Source of the DNA: a virus
Virus record (IMG/VR): IMGVR_UViG_3300025011_000160
Location: 1-28,348 of that record
DNA: 28,348 nt
Direction: 5' to 3' (one strand)
Each line of letters opens with the position of its first letter. The first letter of the stretch is position 1. Below are positions 2,036 to 24,989 of this stretch, one piece after another. Position numbers and translations under genes: made by a program. The notes beneath the pieces are model-generated. The model saw only the letters and a program-made list of their open reading frames with translations. It did not search any database and was not told the DNA's origin.

Positions 2036-3157
2036 CTATTGTTTATAATTGTTTAGTTCTTTATTTAATATTTCTTCTATATTGTCTATGTCCCAGTACC
2101 AAATCTCTAACAATTGAATATTATTTTCTTTTGCATACTCTCTTTTTCTTCTATCATGTTCTTGTTGATCTTTAAATGCTTGTTTGTTTTTATGAAATCC
2201 TTTTCTATATTCCATATGTTGAATTCCTTGAAACTCTATTAAAAGATTAAATTCTTTAATATAGAAATCATAAGAAAGATTTCCATTGTTAACTCCAACT
2301 AGTCCATGGTATTCTCTTTGTGCAATATAATCAATAAAATGTAATTCTAAATATCTTCTAATATATTGTTCACCTTTTGACTCTGCACAAATAGGACACC
2401 GTTGGCCATTAATAAAATTGTTAGCGTTCATGGGAAATATTTCACCACAAGTTTTATGCGTAAAAGATAAAAGTGATTTATTATTTATATATTCTCCATC
2501 AACAGTATATTCATCATTTACCAAATCATATACTTCTTTTTGAACTATTTCAATAGTTTTTCTTTCAAGGCCGGAACATATAATACATTTATTGCCACTT
2601 AAAATATCATTAGGAATAACCATATATTCTTGATTACAAACATTATGTTTCATTTTTATCTTAGTTGAACTTCTAATGTATTCACCTAAAACTTCATATT
2701 CATCACCATATTTTTCATATATTTTCTGTTTGAATTCTTCTGTATTACTCTGCTTACTTTCATTACAATTTGGACATCTACATTTACCATGTGTAAAATT
2801 AGCAGGAGTTACCTCGTATTCATATTCACAAGTATTATGTTTCATTTTAATATACTCATGTATACCTGTATGTTCACCCAGTACGGTATATTCATTTGCA
2901 ACTAAATCATAAATTTCTTTCTTAAATTGCTCTGTAGTTTTATTATATATTCTTTCTTTTACTGGAGTACATTTATCACATTGTTTTTTATCGAAGTCTC
3001 TAAACATTCTAAAAGACGTAGAAAATGGTTCTCCACATTTACATATTAAATCTAAATCTTTTCTAATACCTAAATATTCTTTGCTTTTTAATTTACAACT
3101 AGATTCACTTTCAACTTCTATGTAATTTTTTACATCAATATATAATAATTTTCTCAT
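2036..3157 (-). CDS. putative homing endonuclease, triple zinc-ribbon repeat plus VSR-like EDxHD nuclease
   Basis: The product is 373 aa. Residues ~74-262 hold three copies of a ~62-residue repeat, each beginning with (E/Q)FK-x-x-(I/V)Y-D-like helices and ending in CPxC, CxxC or CPIC, consistent with zinc ribbons. The C-terminal domain has the order expected for a VSR-like EDxHD nuclease as described for the phage homing enzyme I-Bth0305I: GEQYIRRYL (E263), SYDFYI (D297), IEFQGIQH (E309, H314) and QEHDRRK (D335). The gene overlaps the stop codon of the upstream endonuclease gene (TAATG) and has a strong GGAGGT site, suggesting coupled translation. It probably nicks or cuts DNA to spread itself. 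The catalytic assignment is by pattern only. Confidence 0.75.
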   Translation of the reverse strand: MRKLLYIDVKNYIEVESESSCKLKSKEYLGIRKDLDLICKCGEPFSTSFRMFRDFDKKQCDKCTPVKERIYNKTTEQFKKEIYDLVANEYTVLGEHTGIHEYIKMKHNTCEYEYEVTPANFTHGKCRCPNCNESKQSNTEEFKQKIYEKYGDEYEVLGEYIRSSTKIKMKHNVCNQEYMVIPNDILSGNKCIICSGLERKTIEIVQKEVYDLVNDEYTVDGEYINNKSLLSFTHKTCGEIFPMNANNFINGQRCPICAESKGEQYIRRYLELHFIDYIAQREYHGLVGVNNGNLSYDFYIKEFNLLIEFQGIQHMEYRKGFHKNKQAFKDQQEHDRRKREYAKENNIQLLEIWYWDIDNIEEILNKELNNYKQ

Positions 3158-4548
3158 TATTTATTACCTCCTGTAGAGGACAATGATGTTATTTTGTTAT
3201 TATCTTCTAAGTCTTTTTTAGAAATTCTCCTTAATTCTCCAAAATCATAATCAAATTGTCCTTGGGAGTTAATTATTTTTGAATTGTCAATGTCAAATTT
3301 TATCCATGAATGACCTGAATTAATATATTCTTTGGCATAAGTAATCATTTCTATTATTATTTTATCAGAAGGAATATAATCATTTATCGATATAATTCTA
3401 ATTAACATCCATCCTTTTAATCGGATAAATATTTCTCGTCTTTTTTCTTTATTATAAAATTCGTCAATTGATATTTGATTTAATTTTATACTATTTGTAT
3501 GACCTCCACCATCATACTCGATACAAATAAATTCTTTTGGAAATGCAATATCTAAACTACAAGTCGAAATAGGGTAATTTAATTCTCCATTCAATAAATT
3601 ACATAAATATTCTTGTTGTTTAGATGTTGGTGAAGTATTATTCAAATACATAGTTTTACGAGATTTTTCTATGATTTTTACATCTCTAAATGGATGACCA
3701 CCTACATATTTTATCCACGTTTTATTGCGTTTATCTTTTACTTCATCATTTAATAAACTACATGAAAATCCGTATCTATCTACACATGTGTTTTTTACTT
3801 TTTCTTTAATTTCTTCATTTTTGGATGGATTATCAAAACCATATTTTTCAATATTAGTATTAATAATTTTATTCTTAATATCTTTATTCTGTATAGGATA
3901 TAAAACATCATAATTATCCATCATAGTTTTTTTACTTTTATTTTGTACATCAATATTATTTAATGAACAAATTTCACCATATCGTTCAATATTAGTATCA
4001 ATTTGTTTTTGTCTAACTTCGTCATTTTGAGAAACCCATTCAACACCATATTTCCTTAAATTAGTTTTTATAACTTTTTCTTTCCACTCTTCTGTTTGAG
4101 CATAATTTTCTGCTCCATATTTATCTAAGCATGTATTTTTAATTTTATCTTTAATTTCTTCAGATTGAAAAGTATTTTCTACTCCGTATTTATCTAAACA
4201 TGTATTTTTGCGTTTATTACTGACTTCATTTAACGAATTTGTACTTTCAACACCATATTTTAATAAATTACTTTCCTTAACTTTTAATGATTGACATTTC
4301 TTACAGCAATCTTTATGTATAATTGCTTTTTCATTCTGCTTGATATAATCCTGATATTTTTTATTTGTAGTATTTATAAAACAATAATCACAAAGTACAT
4401 CTACATATATATCGCTATTACCTTTTGACACATCTTCCACTTTGACTTCAAATTCATCATTATATTGCGTAAAAACATATCCTTTGTTAATATAGTATTT
4501 TTTGTTTCTTTTATTCCAGTTAATTAATACAGTTTTAGTAAGCACCAT
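3157..4548 (-). CDS. putative homing endonuclease, nine 23-residue KYGV repeats plus VSR-like nuclease
   Basis: The product is 463 aa. After an N-terminal domain with two CxxC-type pairs (residues ~53-85), residues ~93-282 contain about nine copies of a ~23-residue repeat with the consensus (K/R)YG-V-E-N...(E/D)-E-I/V-K-x-K, known from phage-associated endonucleases as a DNA-binding repeat. The C-terminal domain has E313 (SKQQEYL), D333 (SLDIAF), E344 and H350 (CIEYDGGGH), again the E-D-x-H layout of VSR-like nucleases. Past it, residues ~415-463 are of unknown fold. A GGAGGTAATTAAA ribosome binding site precedes the ATG. A structured RNA (4584-4681) sits just upstream. Specific target and activity are inferred. 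Confidence 0.7.
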   Translation of the reverse strand: MVLTKTVLINWNKRNKKYYINKGYVFTQYNDEFEVKVEDVSKGNSDIYVDVLCDYCFINTTNKKYQDYIKQNEKAIIHKDCCKKCQSLKVKESNLLKYGVESTNSLNEVSNKRKNTCLDKYGVENTFQSEEIKDKIKNTCLDKYGAENYAQTEEWKEKVIKTNLRKYGVEWVSQNDEVRQKQIDTNIERYGEICSLNNIDVQNKSKKTMMDNYDVLYPIQNKDIKNKIINTNIEKYGFDNPSKNEEIKEKVKNTCVDRYGFSCSLLNDEVKDKRNKTWIKYVGGHPFRDVKIIEKSRKTMYLNNTSPTSKQQEYLCNLLNGELNYPISTCSLDIAFPKEFICIEYDGGGHTNSIKLNQISIDEFYNKEKRREIFIRLKGWMLIRIISINDYIPSDKIIIEMITYAKEYINSGHSWIKFDIDNSKIINSQGQFDYDFGELRRISKKDLEDNNKITSLSSTGGNK

Positions 4549-20417: not shown

Positions 20418-21617
20418 TTATTTAAAAAATATATCATACATAACCTTTACACCTTTATTATTACATACACAAACTAATTGTTGAGGACTTCCTAGTATAC
20501 GTTTTTCTATCGTATAGTCATCCATTCCCATTAAAGATCCTGACATCATTAGTTTATAACCTTGAACATAAGTGTGTGAATTATGATGTAAATGACCACT
20601 AAATACTCCATATATTTCATGAGGTATCATTTCAATTAATTTGAGTGAACTGTTTATGCCATCATAATCACCATGGACTCCCAAATAATATAATCCTCTA
20701 ATATTTATCAAGGACATAGTATTATCAACTATATTATCAACAACAGAAATATTTGTTATATTTTGCAGTCTTGCTTTAATATAAAAAGGAATTAAATCAT
20801 CCAATCTCTCACCTTTTGGACTATCAAATTTAGTGGATAACCTACTGTGATTTCCTGAAACAACAGAAAAATATACATTGTTAAAATATCCACTTAGCTC
20901 ACTAAGAAACCATGATATTAATTCACTCGCTCCCATAACTTGTTCAACAACATTTTCTCTATTTGCTAATTGAATTCCGAGATGAGTGTTTCCTGAAATT
21001 ATGTCTCCGTTTGCACATACATAACAATTTTCTGAGTTATGTGTTCTCTTAATAGTAATTATTTCTTCTATGTAATGTTCAAGTCTTTCTTTTGCAATTT
21101 CAGGACTATATTTATTCCAATAATTATCAATCATAATTCCAAAGTGCATATCATTAAGTCCAATTAATAAATCATTATCAGATTGTATTACCTGTTTATA
21201 TAATTTATTTAAATAAGGTTTAATATTTTGAATTGCATTTGTTAAGATTTTTTGATTTTCTTCTTTTCTTGCTAATGTGCGTATATCTTTATTTATAGAT
21301 GTTCTTAAATCTTGAAGTTTTACTCTTTCTTTTTTGAGATTTATTTCTTGCATTTGTACATCAGATAATTTCTTCTCAATTACAATATCTTTAACCTCAA
21401 CATCCCTATTAATACCCAACTTCTTTAATGTCCCATCGCGATCCTGTCTTTTTTTGATAAATTGTCTATAATGTTCACCAGATTTGAATGGAAATCCTTG
21501 ATACTCATTTAAATCATTCCAAGAAGGATTTTTAGTATTAAGTATTTTCTTATATTTATCTCTATCATTTTTAAAATCTACACCGATAATATAAAGTTCA
21601 TCTTTTGATTTTGACAA
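20418..21617 (-). CDS. calcineurin-type metallophosphoesterase
   Basis: The product is 399 aa. The C-terminal ~250 residues carry the metal-binding motifs in order: LNDMHFG (~155), NGDIISGN (~203), VVSGNHSRL (~253), GVHGDYDG (~313) and FSGHLHH (~339). The fold is that of Mre11/SbcD-like nucleases and related phosphoesterases, so a DNA exonuclease or end-processing role is likely, but the substrate cannot be read from the sequence. The N-terminal ~140 residues are helical with a likely coiled coil (~85-135). The TTG start at 21617 follows TAGGTGGT at a long distance, so the exact start is uncertain. Confidence 0.8.
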   Translation of the reverse strand: MSKSKDELYIIGVDFKNDRDKYKKILNTKNPSWNDLNEYQGFPFKSGEHYRQFIKKRQDRDGTLKKLGINRDVEVKDIVIEKKLSDVQMQEINLKKERVKLQDLRTSINKDIRTLARKEENQKILTNAIQNIKPYLNKLYKQVIQSDNDLLIGLNDMHFGIMIDNYWNKYSPEIAKERLEHYIEEIITIKRTHNSENCYVCANGDIISGNTHLGIQLANRENVVEQVMGASELISWFLSELSGYFNNVYFSVVSGNHSRLSTKFDSPKGERLDDLIPFYIKARLQNITNISVVDNIVDNTMSLINIRGLYYLGVHGDYDGINSSLKLIEMIPHEIYGVFSGHLHHNSHTYVQGYKLMMSGSLMGMDDYTIEKRILGSPQQLVCVCNNKGVKVMYDIFFK

Positions 21618-21689
21618 TATTTATTAATACCACCTATTGTAATTTATTTTATTATTCCCATACAAAAAGAAAAATTAATTAAAAGAATA

Positions 21690-21850
21690 TATCCAGAATT
21701 TCGACGCGATAGCTAGAAATTATGCAAGCGTAAGGCGACAAAGCCTTACAAGACACCTGCTCCCCGTTTCGTTCCCTTGACATGTCACAAGATAATTGAT
21801 TTGATATTTGTCCTACGGAACATTTCGCAATTTTGTCGCAACAAAATTAC
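21690..21850. other. G+C-richer structured non-coding island
   Basis: This part of the 250-base gap 21618-21867 is close to half G+C by eye in its first ~100 bases, against a far lower background. It holds GTAAGGC/GCCTTAC (21730-21749, 6-base loop), the perfect palindrome GACATGTC (21779-21786) and ATTTTGT/ACAAAAT (21830-21847, 4-base loop). Only short ORFs are present. It lies just downstream of the GIY-YIG gene and before the metallophosphoesterase. It could be a remnant of a mobile element or intron end, or a structured RNA. The 3'-most part toward 21618 is AT-rich with possible promoter elements for the next gene. Confidence 0.5.
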
Positions 21851-21867
21851 TCATGGTTATATTATTA

Positions 21868-22443
21868 TTATAATCTTCTAATTCTCCAATATTTCTTTTC
21901 ATAGTTATCATTTAAAGAACCATCTTCTAAATATTTATCCCAATCATATTCACATTCAATATTATAATTTATTTCACAAGTTAAGAAAAATAAATTTAAT
22001 TCTACAATACTTTTAAGAAGTTTAGTACCTTCTTTTGCACGTAAATCTTTAACAAACCTTATTTGATCTTTTTTAAATAATATACAATCAACTATATTCT
22101 CAAAGTCAAAATCGAAATTATATTTGTAATTAAATATATTATTTTTAATTATACTTATTTCTTCCCATATTAAATTTGGTAATTGTATTGTTAATATGTC
22201 TTGTTTTTTCAACTCTGAGTTTAATTTTGGTTTATAAAGATTTATGTAATAAGGCTCGTAAACCACTAAATCACTTTCTGATTTTACTTTTGCATACTCT
22301 ACTCTTACAACTTCTGAATAATCTTCATTTGATAAATGCCCATTATTTCCAAAGTGTTGATTCAATCTTATTCTTATATTATTCTTTGTTTTTCCAACAT
22401 AAATTATCTCATCATTATTATTAATAAACTTATATAAATACAT
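21868..22443 (-). CDS. GIY-YIG endonuclease
   Basis: The product is 191 aa. The N-terminal ~75 residues match the GIY-YIG fold: YLYKF and IIYVGKT strands, RIRLNQH (candidate catalytic Arg), YEPYYINLYKPKLN with E63 and the trailing N75. The remaining ~115 residues, with several hydrophobic helices and IRFVKDLRAKEGTKLL, may bind DNA. A GGAGATGAT site precedes the ATG. It is free-standing between the helicase and metallophosphoesterase genes, with structured non-coding DNA on both sides, typical of a homing endonuclease invader. No group I intron core is visible around it. Confidence 0.8.
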   Translation of the reverse strand: MYLYKFINNNDEIIYVGKTKNNIRIRLNQHFGNNGHLSNEDYSEVVRVEYAKVKSESDLVVYEPYYINLYKPKLNSELKKQDILTIQLPNLIWEEISIIKNNIFNYKYNFDFDFENIVDCILFKKDQIRFVKDLRAKEGTKLLKSIVELNLFFLTCEINYNIECEYDWDKYLEDGSLNDNYEKKYWRIRRL

Positions 22444-22543
22444 AATTTATCATCTCCAATACTTTAATAATATTTGTATTAGTAAGTAATCATATACTTT
22501 ATAATCCATGAATTATATTATTTATTTTGTTTTATTTTTGTGT

Positions 22544-22601
22544 TTAGGGACAATTATGGTGCAAGCCTCTTAAAGAAGGGTTGCAACAATTTTGTCCCTA
22601 A
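22544..22601. other. 58-base long hairpin at the end of the helicase gene
   Basis: TTAGGGACAA and TTGTCCCTAA pair perfectly (10 bp). Inside, GGTGCAA pairs with TTGCAAC (one mismatch) and CCTCTT with AAGAAGG, closing on a small loop. The structure begins 3 bases past the helicase stop codon. It is stronger than most terminators here but has no U-run on either side, so a processing or protection role, or an element end, is possible. Confidence 0.55.
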
Positions 22602-22603
22602 TA

Positions 22604-24067
22604 TTATAAATCTATTTTTTCAACAATCCAATATCTCTTATTATTACTTTTCTTTGGTAAGATTATATAATTTAATTCAATCATTTTTAGTCCATCATTT
22701 AATTTATCATAACTTTTTTGCAACCTTCTGTTCACTTTTAAATCAATTTTCTCAATTAATTCTTTTTGTTCTTCTTTATACAACCTCTTACCAACAATGC
22801 TTTCTAAATATTTCTCTAACTCATCAATTGCACTTTGTTCTTCAATCATATTATAAAATTCAACTCCAAATATAGATTGAATATATTTACAATAACCATA
22901 TTTTCCATATCCTTTTATAGTTAATATTTCAGATAAATCTTCTTCGCATTTAAAAAACATTAACTCATTTATTTTCTTTGTTCCTTTATTGTTTTCCGAT
23001 ACAGCATTGTCATAAACCATATTAGAATAATCATATTGTCTTGGAAATTCTTCTATAAATTCTTTAACTGTATGTTCTTTGAGAAAATTAGCCATATGTA
23101 TCTTTTTCTTTAGTTGAGTCTCTTTTCCTCCTAAAGAATTATTGCTAATGACTTTGATATACAAATGAATTTTATCATTTTCATCTTGTATCCTTTTTCT
23201 GCCCATACATTGAATCAAAACTCCTGTGTCTTCAACTTCACATATTACATGTTTTATATCAGTATCAACTAAATTAACCCCTGCATCCATACAAGTCGTA
23301 GTAATAAGTATTAATTCTTCAAATCTTTCATTCTTTAGCATTTCTTTAATCTTTGTTTTGTCTACATATTTATAATAATCACTATTATGTTTGCTACAAT
23401 TGAATAAACAATAATCTTTAAATTTCTTATATAATTCATATGCTTTCTTTGCAGACTGAATAAAGAAAATTGCTTTCTCATTTCTTGCAATTATTTCATC
23501 CATAAACATATCAAAAGTCTCATCATTGTGAAAGAAAGATAAATCCTCAACAAAATCAAAATCAATAGGTAATTCATAGTCTATGGTTTCTATTCCTTTA
23601 TTATCATTGATAAATCTCTTCATTTGATCACCAGTGGCACTCATGAATATCTTTATTGCTGACGTTTGACTTAATATTAAATCAAATGACATATCTGTTG
23701 TTTTTGAGAAAGATGCGTCAGACATGAAATAATGAAACTCATCACAAACAATATATTTGTATTCGCTTAAATCATTGAAGTATGATTTTAATTCTTTATA
23801 CTCAAGTTTTTGATATGTCTTAATATCTATTACATCTGATTTATTATCTCTTGATATTTCATCAATAAATTGTTCTGTACAATTACTTCTATGTATAAGC
23901 ATTAATATTTTCTTGTTTTCACCTTTTGCAATATCATATAGTATATTTTTAATTAACCAACTCTTACCTACACCTGTACCTGCTTTTATTGTTATGATGT
24001 CTCCTAAATCCCATAATTTTATTTGTTCTCCTGTGACAACATCACTTACTCTTAATTTCTTTTTCAC
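22604..24067 (-). CDS. DExH superfamily 2 helicase
   Basis: About 487 aa. Walker A GTGVGKS lies at ~30-36, the DExH box DEFH at ~109-112, motif III SAT at ~143-145, and the C-terminal motif QCMGRKR at ~286-292 after TTTCMDAGVNLV. This is a two-domain RecA-like helicase likely acting in phage DNA replication or recombination. The C-terminal ~50 residues end in a motif (YIILPKK...RYWIVEKI) also found at the end of the HNH protein at 24384-24989. I prefer the GTG at 24067, giving (M)KKKLRVSDVV, because AGGTG lies 6 bases upstream; a GTG at 24076 is part of that site. It follows directly after a strong terminator. Confidence 0.85.
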   Translation of the reverse strand: MKKKLRVSDVVTGEQIKLWDLGDIITIKAGTGVGKSWLIKNILYDIAKGENKKILMLIHRSNCTEQFIDEISRDNKSDVIDIKTYQKLEYKELKSYFNDLSEYKYIVCDEFHYFMSDASFSKTTDMSFDLILSQTSAIKIFMSATGDQMKRFINDNKGIETIDYELPIDFDFVEDLSFFHNDETFDMFMDEIIARNEKAIFFIQSAKKAYELYKKFKDYCLFNCSKHNSDYYKYVDKTKIKEMLKNERFEELILITTTCMDAGVNLVDTDIKHVICEVEDTGVLIQCMGRKRIQDENDKIHLYIKVISNNSLGGKETQLKKKIHMANFLKEHTVKEFIEEFPRQYDYSNMVYDNAVSENNKGTKKINELMFFKCEEDLSEILTIKGYGKYGYCKYIQSIFGVEFYNMIEEQSAIDELEKYLESIVGKRLYKEEQKELIEKIDLKVNRRLQKSYDKLNDGLKMIELNYIILPKKSNNKRYWIVEKIDL

Positions 24068-24100
24068 ATTAAGCACCTCACCTTATTTTTACATAATAAA

Positions 24101-24383: not shown

Positions 24384-24989
24384 TTATATTTTTAAGATAG
24401 TCCAATAATACTTACCTCTAAATTCCGATTTTTTACTATTTTCTTTTTTTGATATTATATAATATGGTATACACAATTCTTCTAATTTACTGTTTATGAT
24501 TTTATACCCTAAACTATTATGATTTATTTTAAATTGAAAGGCTATAAGACTTTTTAAAAATAATTTAAATTCTTCTTTATTACCATTAAACAACTTCCCA
24601 CCTTTTAATTCTTTCAATTTATTATTAAGTAATATAATATCATTTTTATATAATTTTGCCTGATTTAATTTTTTCATAGTCTTGAATAAATTTTTTATTA
24701 TATGCTCATTATCGTGACACTCTTGACAGATGGTTATGCCTTTAATATCTAAATGTTTCCCTAATAATATTAATCTTATTTTTTCTAATTCTTCTACACT
24801 ATAATTATTAATATCCTCTTTGTATTTTAAATTTAATAATTTTAATACATCGTTTAATAGTTCAATGAATTGTATTTCGTGATGCACTTCTAAATTTTCT
24901 TTTGTTGAACAAACCTCACACATATCTTTTTTAATTAATGAAATCCATTTATTATTTATATCCATACGTAAAAATTGAATTAAATTCAT
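24384..24989 (-). CDS. HNH endonuclease-like protein
   Basis: The product is 201 aa with a GAGGAGATGAT ribosome binding site. CEVC at 24-27, LEVHHEI at 33-39, and CQECHDNEH at 88-96 give the CxxC...HH...CxxCHxxxH pattern of zinc-supported HNH nucleases. The ~50 residues between the two halves are a longer insertion than in compact HNH proteins. The C-terminal ~50 residues end in YYIISKK...KYYWTILKI, similar to the end of the helicase product. It lies within a unit of small paralogs having its own promoter and terminator. It is probably a homing-type or accessory endonuclease. Confidence 0.75.
   Translation of the reverse strand: MNLIQFLRMDINNKWISLIKKDMCEVCSTKENLEVHHEIQFIELLNDVLKLLNLKYKEDINNYSVEELEKIRLILLGKHLDIKGITICQECHDNEHIIKNLFKTMKKLNQAKLYKNDIILLNNKLKELKGGKLFNGNKEEFKLFLKSLIAFQFKINHNSLGYKIINSKLEELCIPYYIISKKENSKKSEFRGKYYWTILKI

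Follow-up and report, generated by a model that had tools for sequence, protein, structure and literature searches.

In the Inc18 plasmid pAMbeta1, ori lies immediately downstream of the initiator gene and is followed by the primosome assembly site ssiA (PMC5703833). RSF1010 has a repeat-bearing origin, oriV, whose ssiA and ssiB stem-loops are exposed by unwinding and recognised by the plasmid's RepB' (PMC4234260). The same source describes, for the archaeal plasmid pRN1, one origin stem-loop of ~100 nt directly downstream of the rep gene in which structure is kept and sequence is not, and it mentions similar stem-loops in several bacteriophages (PMC4234260). Two proteins are also relevant: the herpesvirus UL9 is an origin-binding protein (PMC12543377), and Odn of phage ICP1 is a nuclease that cuts PLE origins, in an attack described there against a satellite, and whose DNA-binding domain resembles that of the PLE origin-binding proteins (PMC8263062).

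The locus reported here matches pAMbeta1 in the presumed order of initiator gene, ori, and assembly site; the likeness is one of layout, and the phage island differs in consisting of two two-hairpin modules that are common to unrelated replication genes. With RSF1010 it shares a repeat-bearing (here putative) origin with short stem-loops, but there the plasmid's own RepB' reads the stem-loops, whereas the step proposed for the island is host-side. As in pRN1, structure is conserved over sequence directly behind a replication gene, although pRN1 has a single stem-loop and the phage has a palindrome together with two distinct modules, A and B. Paper listings and the openings of abstracts, searched for the origins of SPbeta, for stem-loops conserved at phage origins, and for phage initiators of the SF2 type, gave no description of the element.

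The window, that is, the whole stretch of DNA analysed, is the IMG/VR virus record IMGVR_UViG_3300025011_000160 (28,348 nt), and its terminase is 50% identical to the terminases of SPbeta/phi3T phages. The island, at 21690-21850, lies between a GIY-YIG gene and a metallophosphoesterase gene, and the features of the region are as follows.

20418-21617, minus strand: metallophosphoesterase/exonuclease gene, the next gene downstream of the island (phrog_284 exonuclease, 8.4e-55; zero Pfam matches)
21693-21786, minus strand: module B, its first bases overlapping the palindrome at 21778-21787
21697-21721, minus strand: module B hairpin hp1', with loop TAGCTATCGCGTC
21730-21749, minus strand: module B hairpin hp2'
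21778-21787, no strand: palindrome TGACATGTCA where modules A and B meet (read by eye from the sequence and from alignments)
21799-21856, minus strand: module A (covariance model R1; 13 copies aligned; 25 contigs)
about 21810-21820, minus strand: module A hairpin hp2
21821-21823 paired with 21853-21855, minus strand: module A outer stem, CAT/ATG
21827-21850, minus strand: module A hairpin hp1
21868-22443, minus strand: GIY-YIG nuclease gene, between the putative origin palindrome and module A (Pfam GIY-YIG, 4.9e-11)
22544-22601, no strand: palindrome immediately after the helicase gene, the putative origin, with 25-nt arms that are 80% complementary
22604-24076, minus strand: SF2 helicase, putative replication initiator (Pfam/PHROG)
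24384-24989, minus strand: HNH-like nuclease (motif by eye; C-terminal profile E of 5.2e-8)

A first-pass annotation had put the island at about half G+C in an AT-rich genome. The contrast is real, with a window mean of 0.285, but the value is 0.41 over 21690-21850 and approaches one-half (0.488) in the core at 21705-21790; 684 of 28,187 segments of 161 nt equal or exceed the island. Its report of no ORF is borne out (zero ORFs of at least 60 aa overlap 21690-21850), as is that of a 7-bp hairpin, at 21730-21749. The palindrome that it gave as 8 bp is TGACATGTCA, 10 bp long, and what it listed as a further hairpin proved to be two, at 21697-21721 and 21827-21850. Overall, the island divides into module A (21799-21856) and module B (21693-21786), each a set of hairpins, with TGACATGTCA between them; by eye, this junction palindrome reads TGACAAGTCA in some relatives and is missing in others. 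The folding energy of the island is unremarkable (z = -1.22; 27 of 200 shuffles fold equally well), and it is the comparison among relatives, not folding energy alone, that raises the structure above chance.

Among the first seven copies of module A, 98 of 98 cells are paired and both sides have changed at 4 pairs. For 13 distinct copies, 99.4% of 179 cells are paired, and 4 of 14 pairs have changed on both sides, in an alignment that was fitted to the model and so favours pairing, 7 of the 13 copies being the training set of model R1. This level of pairing was reached by 0 of 500 shuffles and falls to 32 to 55% once the partner is slid. Model R1 found copies outside its training set as well, first L044/L081 at 60.9 bits and then others. 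Constant U-G pairs are present on the gene strand, in 10 of 13 copies at one pair and in 6 of 12 at another.

Module B behaves similarly in its hp1' hairpin, an exact 23-mer of which matches in 9 viral contigs. A loop resembling TCGCTATCGCTC is found in 23 of the 26 loci examined on stems that change, giving 12 distinct stem-loops; the other three module B copies (L083, L085, and L095) lack the loop motif and were left out of the stem count. Untrimmed, the stems are Watson-Crick at 100 of 109 positions. Two stem-loops differing only in extent were then merged, and hand trimming cut the resulting 11 back, for the most part to their paired bases. In these, pairing holds at 83 of 85 positions within a stem-loop's own copy, compared with 311 of 752 once arms are swapped between copies and 33 of 74 when they are slid by one. 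Wobble pairs comprise 4 G-T against 1 A-C. L018 is missing module B and has the hp1' loop, reversed, within its module A, a hint that the two modules may have similar roles on opposite strands. Because the stems of both modules covary while their letters change, the data support a folded, constrained strand, probably RNA or single-stranded DNA, rather than incidental hairpins, and the "constrained RNA" of the first-pass annotation stands when widened in this way.

With a cut-off of 35 bits, module A was found in 25 viral contigs, window included, at scores of 35.1 to 77.1. A search of IMG/VR with the phosphoesterase gave 11 loci and a scan with the module A pattern gave 19 viral contigs of up to 230 kb; some of the 25 were found by searching helicase or D5 primase genes themselves. 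All 24 copies for which upstream gene DNA is available lie on the same strand as, and downstream of, a gene for an SF2 helicase (12 copies), a D5 primase (7), a PHROG_36702 protein of unknown function (3), or a diverged SF2 helicase (2), with an identical helicase common to 6 of the 24, all within the 12 SF2 cases. The pattern-only scan gives the same picture in 18 of 18 contigs (15 D5 or SF2 and 3 PHROG_36702), the nineteenth, L020, having just 181 nt upstream. The distance from the end of the gene to module A is 81 to 139 nt in 14 copies, 195 nt in L017, and 283 to 313 nt in 7 D5 cases; in the window and in L015 it is 750 and 861 nt from the end of the helicase, with a nuclease gene between. 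Of 20 contigs scanned in full, 8 have a strong module A match, and each of these has just one. The gene downstream of the island varies among copies, while the class of the upstream gene recurs.

The modules are not indispensable, in that most helicase relatives lack module A. Of the 17 helicase-fetched loci with 450 nt or more downstream, a strong module A match is present in 3 and absent from 14, compared with a strong match in 5 of 7 D5 primase-fetched loci with enough downstream DNA. Both modules are absent from L093 and L094, which are relatives by their helicase (B by eye). Incomplete islands were also found: L014 and L083 are without A, L018 is without B, and L017 has little of B beyond hp1'. 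In L002, where the phosphoesterase is 85% identical, the island is present and the GIY-YIG gene is absent beside it; the same is true of L016, and L089/L092, with helicases 95% identical to that of the window, have part of A, all of B, and no GIY-YIG gene. The finding that the first-pass annotation expected to count against it, low-G+C and unconserved sequence at this place in homologous phages, is not what L002, L016, and L089/L092 have, but the island is missing from L093 and L094 and from phosphoesterase homologues with other upstream genes (L008, L010, and L012).

The search for copies in genomes and phages that the same annotation proposed succeeded in viral contigs; it gave none, or chance matches only, in genome contigs, none in plasmids, and nothing credible in named phages. 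The hp1' 23-mer has zero matches in genome contigs, and three genome-contig matches to the module A pattern are attributed to chance (17.5 to 21.6 bits, versus 35.1 to 77.1 for counted copies). Similarity searches with the island found none in plasmids and only short pieces in named phages (best E of 0.6), and module A scores nothing above 14.3 bits in the named or GenBank phage loci L076 to L080 or in the phosphoesterase relatives L003 to L007 and L011. When the L110 island was searched against named phages, 10 Listeria phages matched, and only over a short stretch at its AT-rich end (query 386-419 in the five matches listed).

The slot upstream of the phosphoesterase in the window, L002, L010, L012, and L015 holds unrelated replication-type genes at one locus, namely, those for an SF2 helicase, a D5 primase, an AEP-TOTE primase, and a weakly matched O-like protein. 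In L117, L118, and L119, PHROG_36702 proteins occupy the initiator place upstream of module A and are followed by palindromes (by eye); these proteins are possibly a new initiator family. L018 has two ORFs resembling an IS607-type pair, a MerR-like recombinase and TnpB, on the minus strand at island-relative positions -2778 to -978 (by eye).

The helicase upstream of the island in the window gave a predicted model with a pLDDT of 86.5 and an SF2 core match with a Z of 20.5 (rmsd of 3.9, 330 aligned), the fold-search rows covering residues 3 to 414. A PADLOC match to Cas3 (E of 2e-7) was put down to the SF2 core. The C-terminal ~95 aa may form a winged-helix origin-binding domain, judging from the predicted models, in which the helicase and the GIY-YIG protein have the same helix-helix-hairpin order at the C terminus. 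UL9 is an SF2 helicase that binds an origin, as is proposed for the window helicase. Origin binding by UL9 resides in its C-terminal part.

A long palindrome follows the helicase gene in 20 of 21 loci, Psychrobacillus phage Perkons included, at a level reached by no more than 4 of 100 shuffles; the single failure, L101, has a palindrome with an indel that begins before the tested segment (by eye). Over 17 loci, palindrome similarity follows the helicase C terminus (Mantel, 0.66; partial, 0.51 given the N terminus, P = 0.0002) and follows the N terminus much less once the C terminus is given (partial Mantel, 0.16). This set leaves out L096 and L105 (broken helicase frames), L091 (contig ends), and L089/L092 (almost the same as the window); the limits of the L101 and L110 palindromes were set by eye, and L100, L104, and L110 have no close palindrome partner in it. 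The helicases of L093 and L094 are 98% identical over the N-terminal 380 residues and 61% identical at the C terminus, and their palindromes differ: a natural swap of C terminus and palindrome together. The window and L090 helicases are likewise 93% identical at the N terminus and 42% at the C terminus. These comparisons support the proposal that the C-terminal domain would read the palindrome at 22544-22601.

Downstream of the D5 genes there are direct and inverted repeats instead, the unit of which differs between phages, with spacings of about 75 to 82 and 131 to 152 in L044, L016, and L018 and of 88 and 163 in L002. We infer that the iterons or the long palindrome between the gene and module A would be the putative origin. 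In 13 of the 16 helicase loci, the richest 80-nt stretch in the ~480 nt after the gene ranks in the 96th percentile or higher for its locus, which is only suggestive because it is a maximum over many such stretches. The G+C skew has no switch at the island in four contigs and does not decide whether replication starts there.

Overall, the island is probably an accessory of the origin, given its place behind replication-type genes, the putative origin between gene and island, and the covariation of helicase C terminus and palindrome. We assign a probability of roughly 0.5 to the reading in which it is the noncoding, structured part of an origin region comprising a helicase initiator, a palindrome, and priming or primosome-assembly hairpins. 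The SF2 helicase would act as the initiator, its C-terminal domain binding the palindrome at 22544-22601; as the origin opens, modules A and B would fold in the single strands or in an origin transcript, and the folded hairpins would then serve as priming or primosome-assembly (ssi-like) signals. The modules recur behind different types of replication gene, which suggests that they probably serve a common, host-side step. An ssi-like role is held to be the most likely because of the recurring position, the base pairing, and the precedents of pAMbeta1, RSF1010, and pRN1; the island resembles known ssi sites in lying close downstream of an initiator gene and putative origin and in having a conserved hairpin in one strand.

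The pairing evidence would also suit a regulatory RNA, in which minus-strand transcription of A and B would yield a leader, 3' untranslated region, or small RNA controlling either the initiator gene or the operon that follows. The U-G pairs of module A are on the gene strand, the wobble pairs of A and hp1' fit one strand, equally an RNA of the gene strand, all 24 copies share the strand of the upstream gene, and AT stretches like a -10 box precede several copies (by eye). Searches for expression signals and known families do not favour such an RNA: in 21600-22700 there are 9 promoter-like sites versus 10.3 expected and 0 intrinsic terminators, and Rfam 15 gives 0 matches in the window at the gathering score. 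A permissive Rfam scan of 21600-22700 returned five matches, all far below their gathering scores. The downstream gene also differs among copies where the upstream class recurs, and in L018 the hp1' loop is reversed within module A. We consider a regulatory RNA rather unlikely. The 18 related loci gave two tRNAs by Rfam, in L085 only, where two adjacent tRNA genes lie upstream of the primase gene (L085:1677-1825); ARAGORN found no tRNA in the window.

Retention of the TGACATGTCA palindrome in many copies (by eye) and the similarity of hp1' loop letters across copies might instead reflect an insulator or a site for a double-stranded-DNA-binding protein, such as an operator or partition site, placed between the replication gene and the operon that follows, with incidental hairpins. 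Stems that covary with changing letters point to a folded strand, however, and make this improbable. Rfam includes intron models, and no intron family was found in the gathering scan of the window or at an E of 10 or less over 21600-22700; nor is there a split gene restored in relatives, the island being intergenic and kept without the GIY-YIG gene in L002, L016, and L089. That the island is the end of a mobile element (intron, insertion sequence, or homing cassette) owning the GIY-YIG gene, as the first-pass annotation had suggested from their adjacency, and to which a partial repeat of the module A start beyond that gene, near 22520 (by eye), might also be ascribed, is very improbable, since in L002, L016, and L089/L092 the island stands without that gene, it matches no Rfam family, and it keeps a fixed place behind a replication-type gene.

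The GIY-YIG gene is best explained as an insertion separate from the island, the two being neighbours because both occupy the presumed origin locus. Part of the sequence that opens module A (AATAATATAA..CATG) recurs on either side of the gene, at ~22505-22530 and 21840-21865 (by eye), and this repeat may mark the insertion. A search of IMG/VR with the encoded protein found no relative, and its residues 114 to 191 resemble the helicase C-terminal domain (profile E of 4.1e-11). Its best helicase matches are L096 (36% over 78 aa, E of 2e-10), L097 (40% over 73 aa), L094, and L101, versus an E of 0.15 for its own helicase, with E-values computed on a small set. In the predicted model, residues 111 to 191 form a block with pLDDT of 92 to 98 and the nuclease part falls below 50, since the remaining sequences in the alignment extend over the C terminus alone; the best match of the model among solved structures is weak (Z of 2.8).

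The same C-terminal domain is found in two HNH-like nucleases, that of the window and that of L015 (L071:7496-8107, minus strand; profile E of 2.4e-14). The window protein, which has zero Pfam matches, is 36% identical over 113 aa to the L110 helicase and matches its own helicase at an E of 9.1. In the L015 protein, the domain shares 62% identity with the L017 helicase, against 29% with the helicase of L015 itself. Among 1,980 ORFs of the loci collected, the C-terminal profile at an E of 0.01 found helicases, helicase fragments, and only three nucleases besides, namely, these two and the window GIY-YIG protein. PADLOC returned nothing for the two nucleases of the window.

On the basis of these sequence relationships, the GIY-YIG protein is probably a candidate origin-directed nuclease, aimed at the origins of other phages, and the HNH-like protein of the window is a second candidate. 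The GIY-YIG protein is predicted to read arms like TTGCCAAG/TTGGCAAG (L096, L097, and L101) and not its own TTAGGGACAA. Like ICP1 Odn, both would join a nuclease to an initiator-type DNA-binding domain of a rival; unlike Odn, they appear to take this domain from SF2 helicases and to join it to GIY-YIG or HNH-like parts, and their putative targets are the palindromes of other phages. We propose tentatively that a two-module, host-facing hairpin element traded between unrelated phage replicons (D5 primase, SF2 helicase, and a further family) marks their origins, that phages compete there by means of GIY-YIG and HNH-like nucleases that capture the origin-reading domain of rival initiators, and that domain, palindrome, and nuclease specificity swap together. 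Origins are unmapped in many phages. If the proposal is true, a module that lies behind several initiator types would make origins easier to locate from sequence and would hint at a host step in common, and the joint swap of helicase C terminus and palindrome would let initiator specificity be read as a code. Judging from the chimeric nucleases, Odn-type origin attack may also take place between phages and with other nuclease and initiator families.

GIY-YIG genes without the helicase-type domain are also found right behind presumed origins in two other loci (L083:1630 onward and L094:4100 onward). At 2036-4548 of the window, two adjacent large ORFs match a treble-clef family (DUF4379, below the cut-off) and DUF7487, and these are possibly further nuclease genes.
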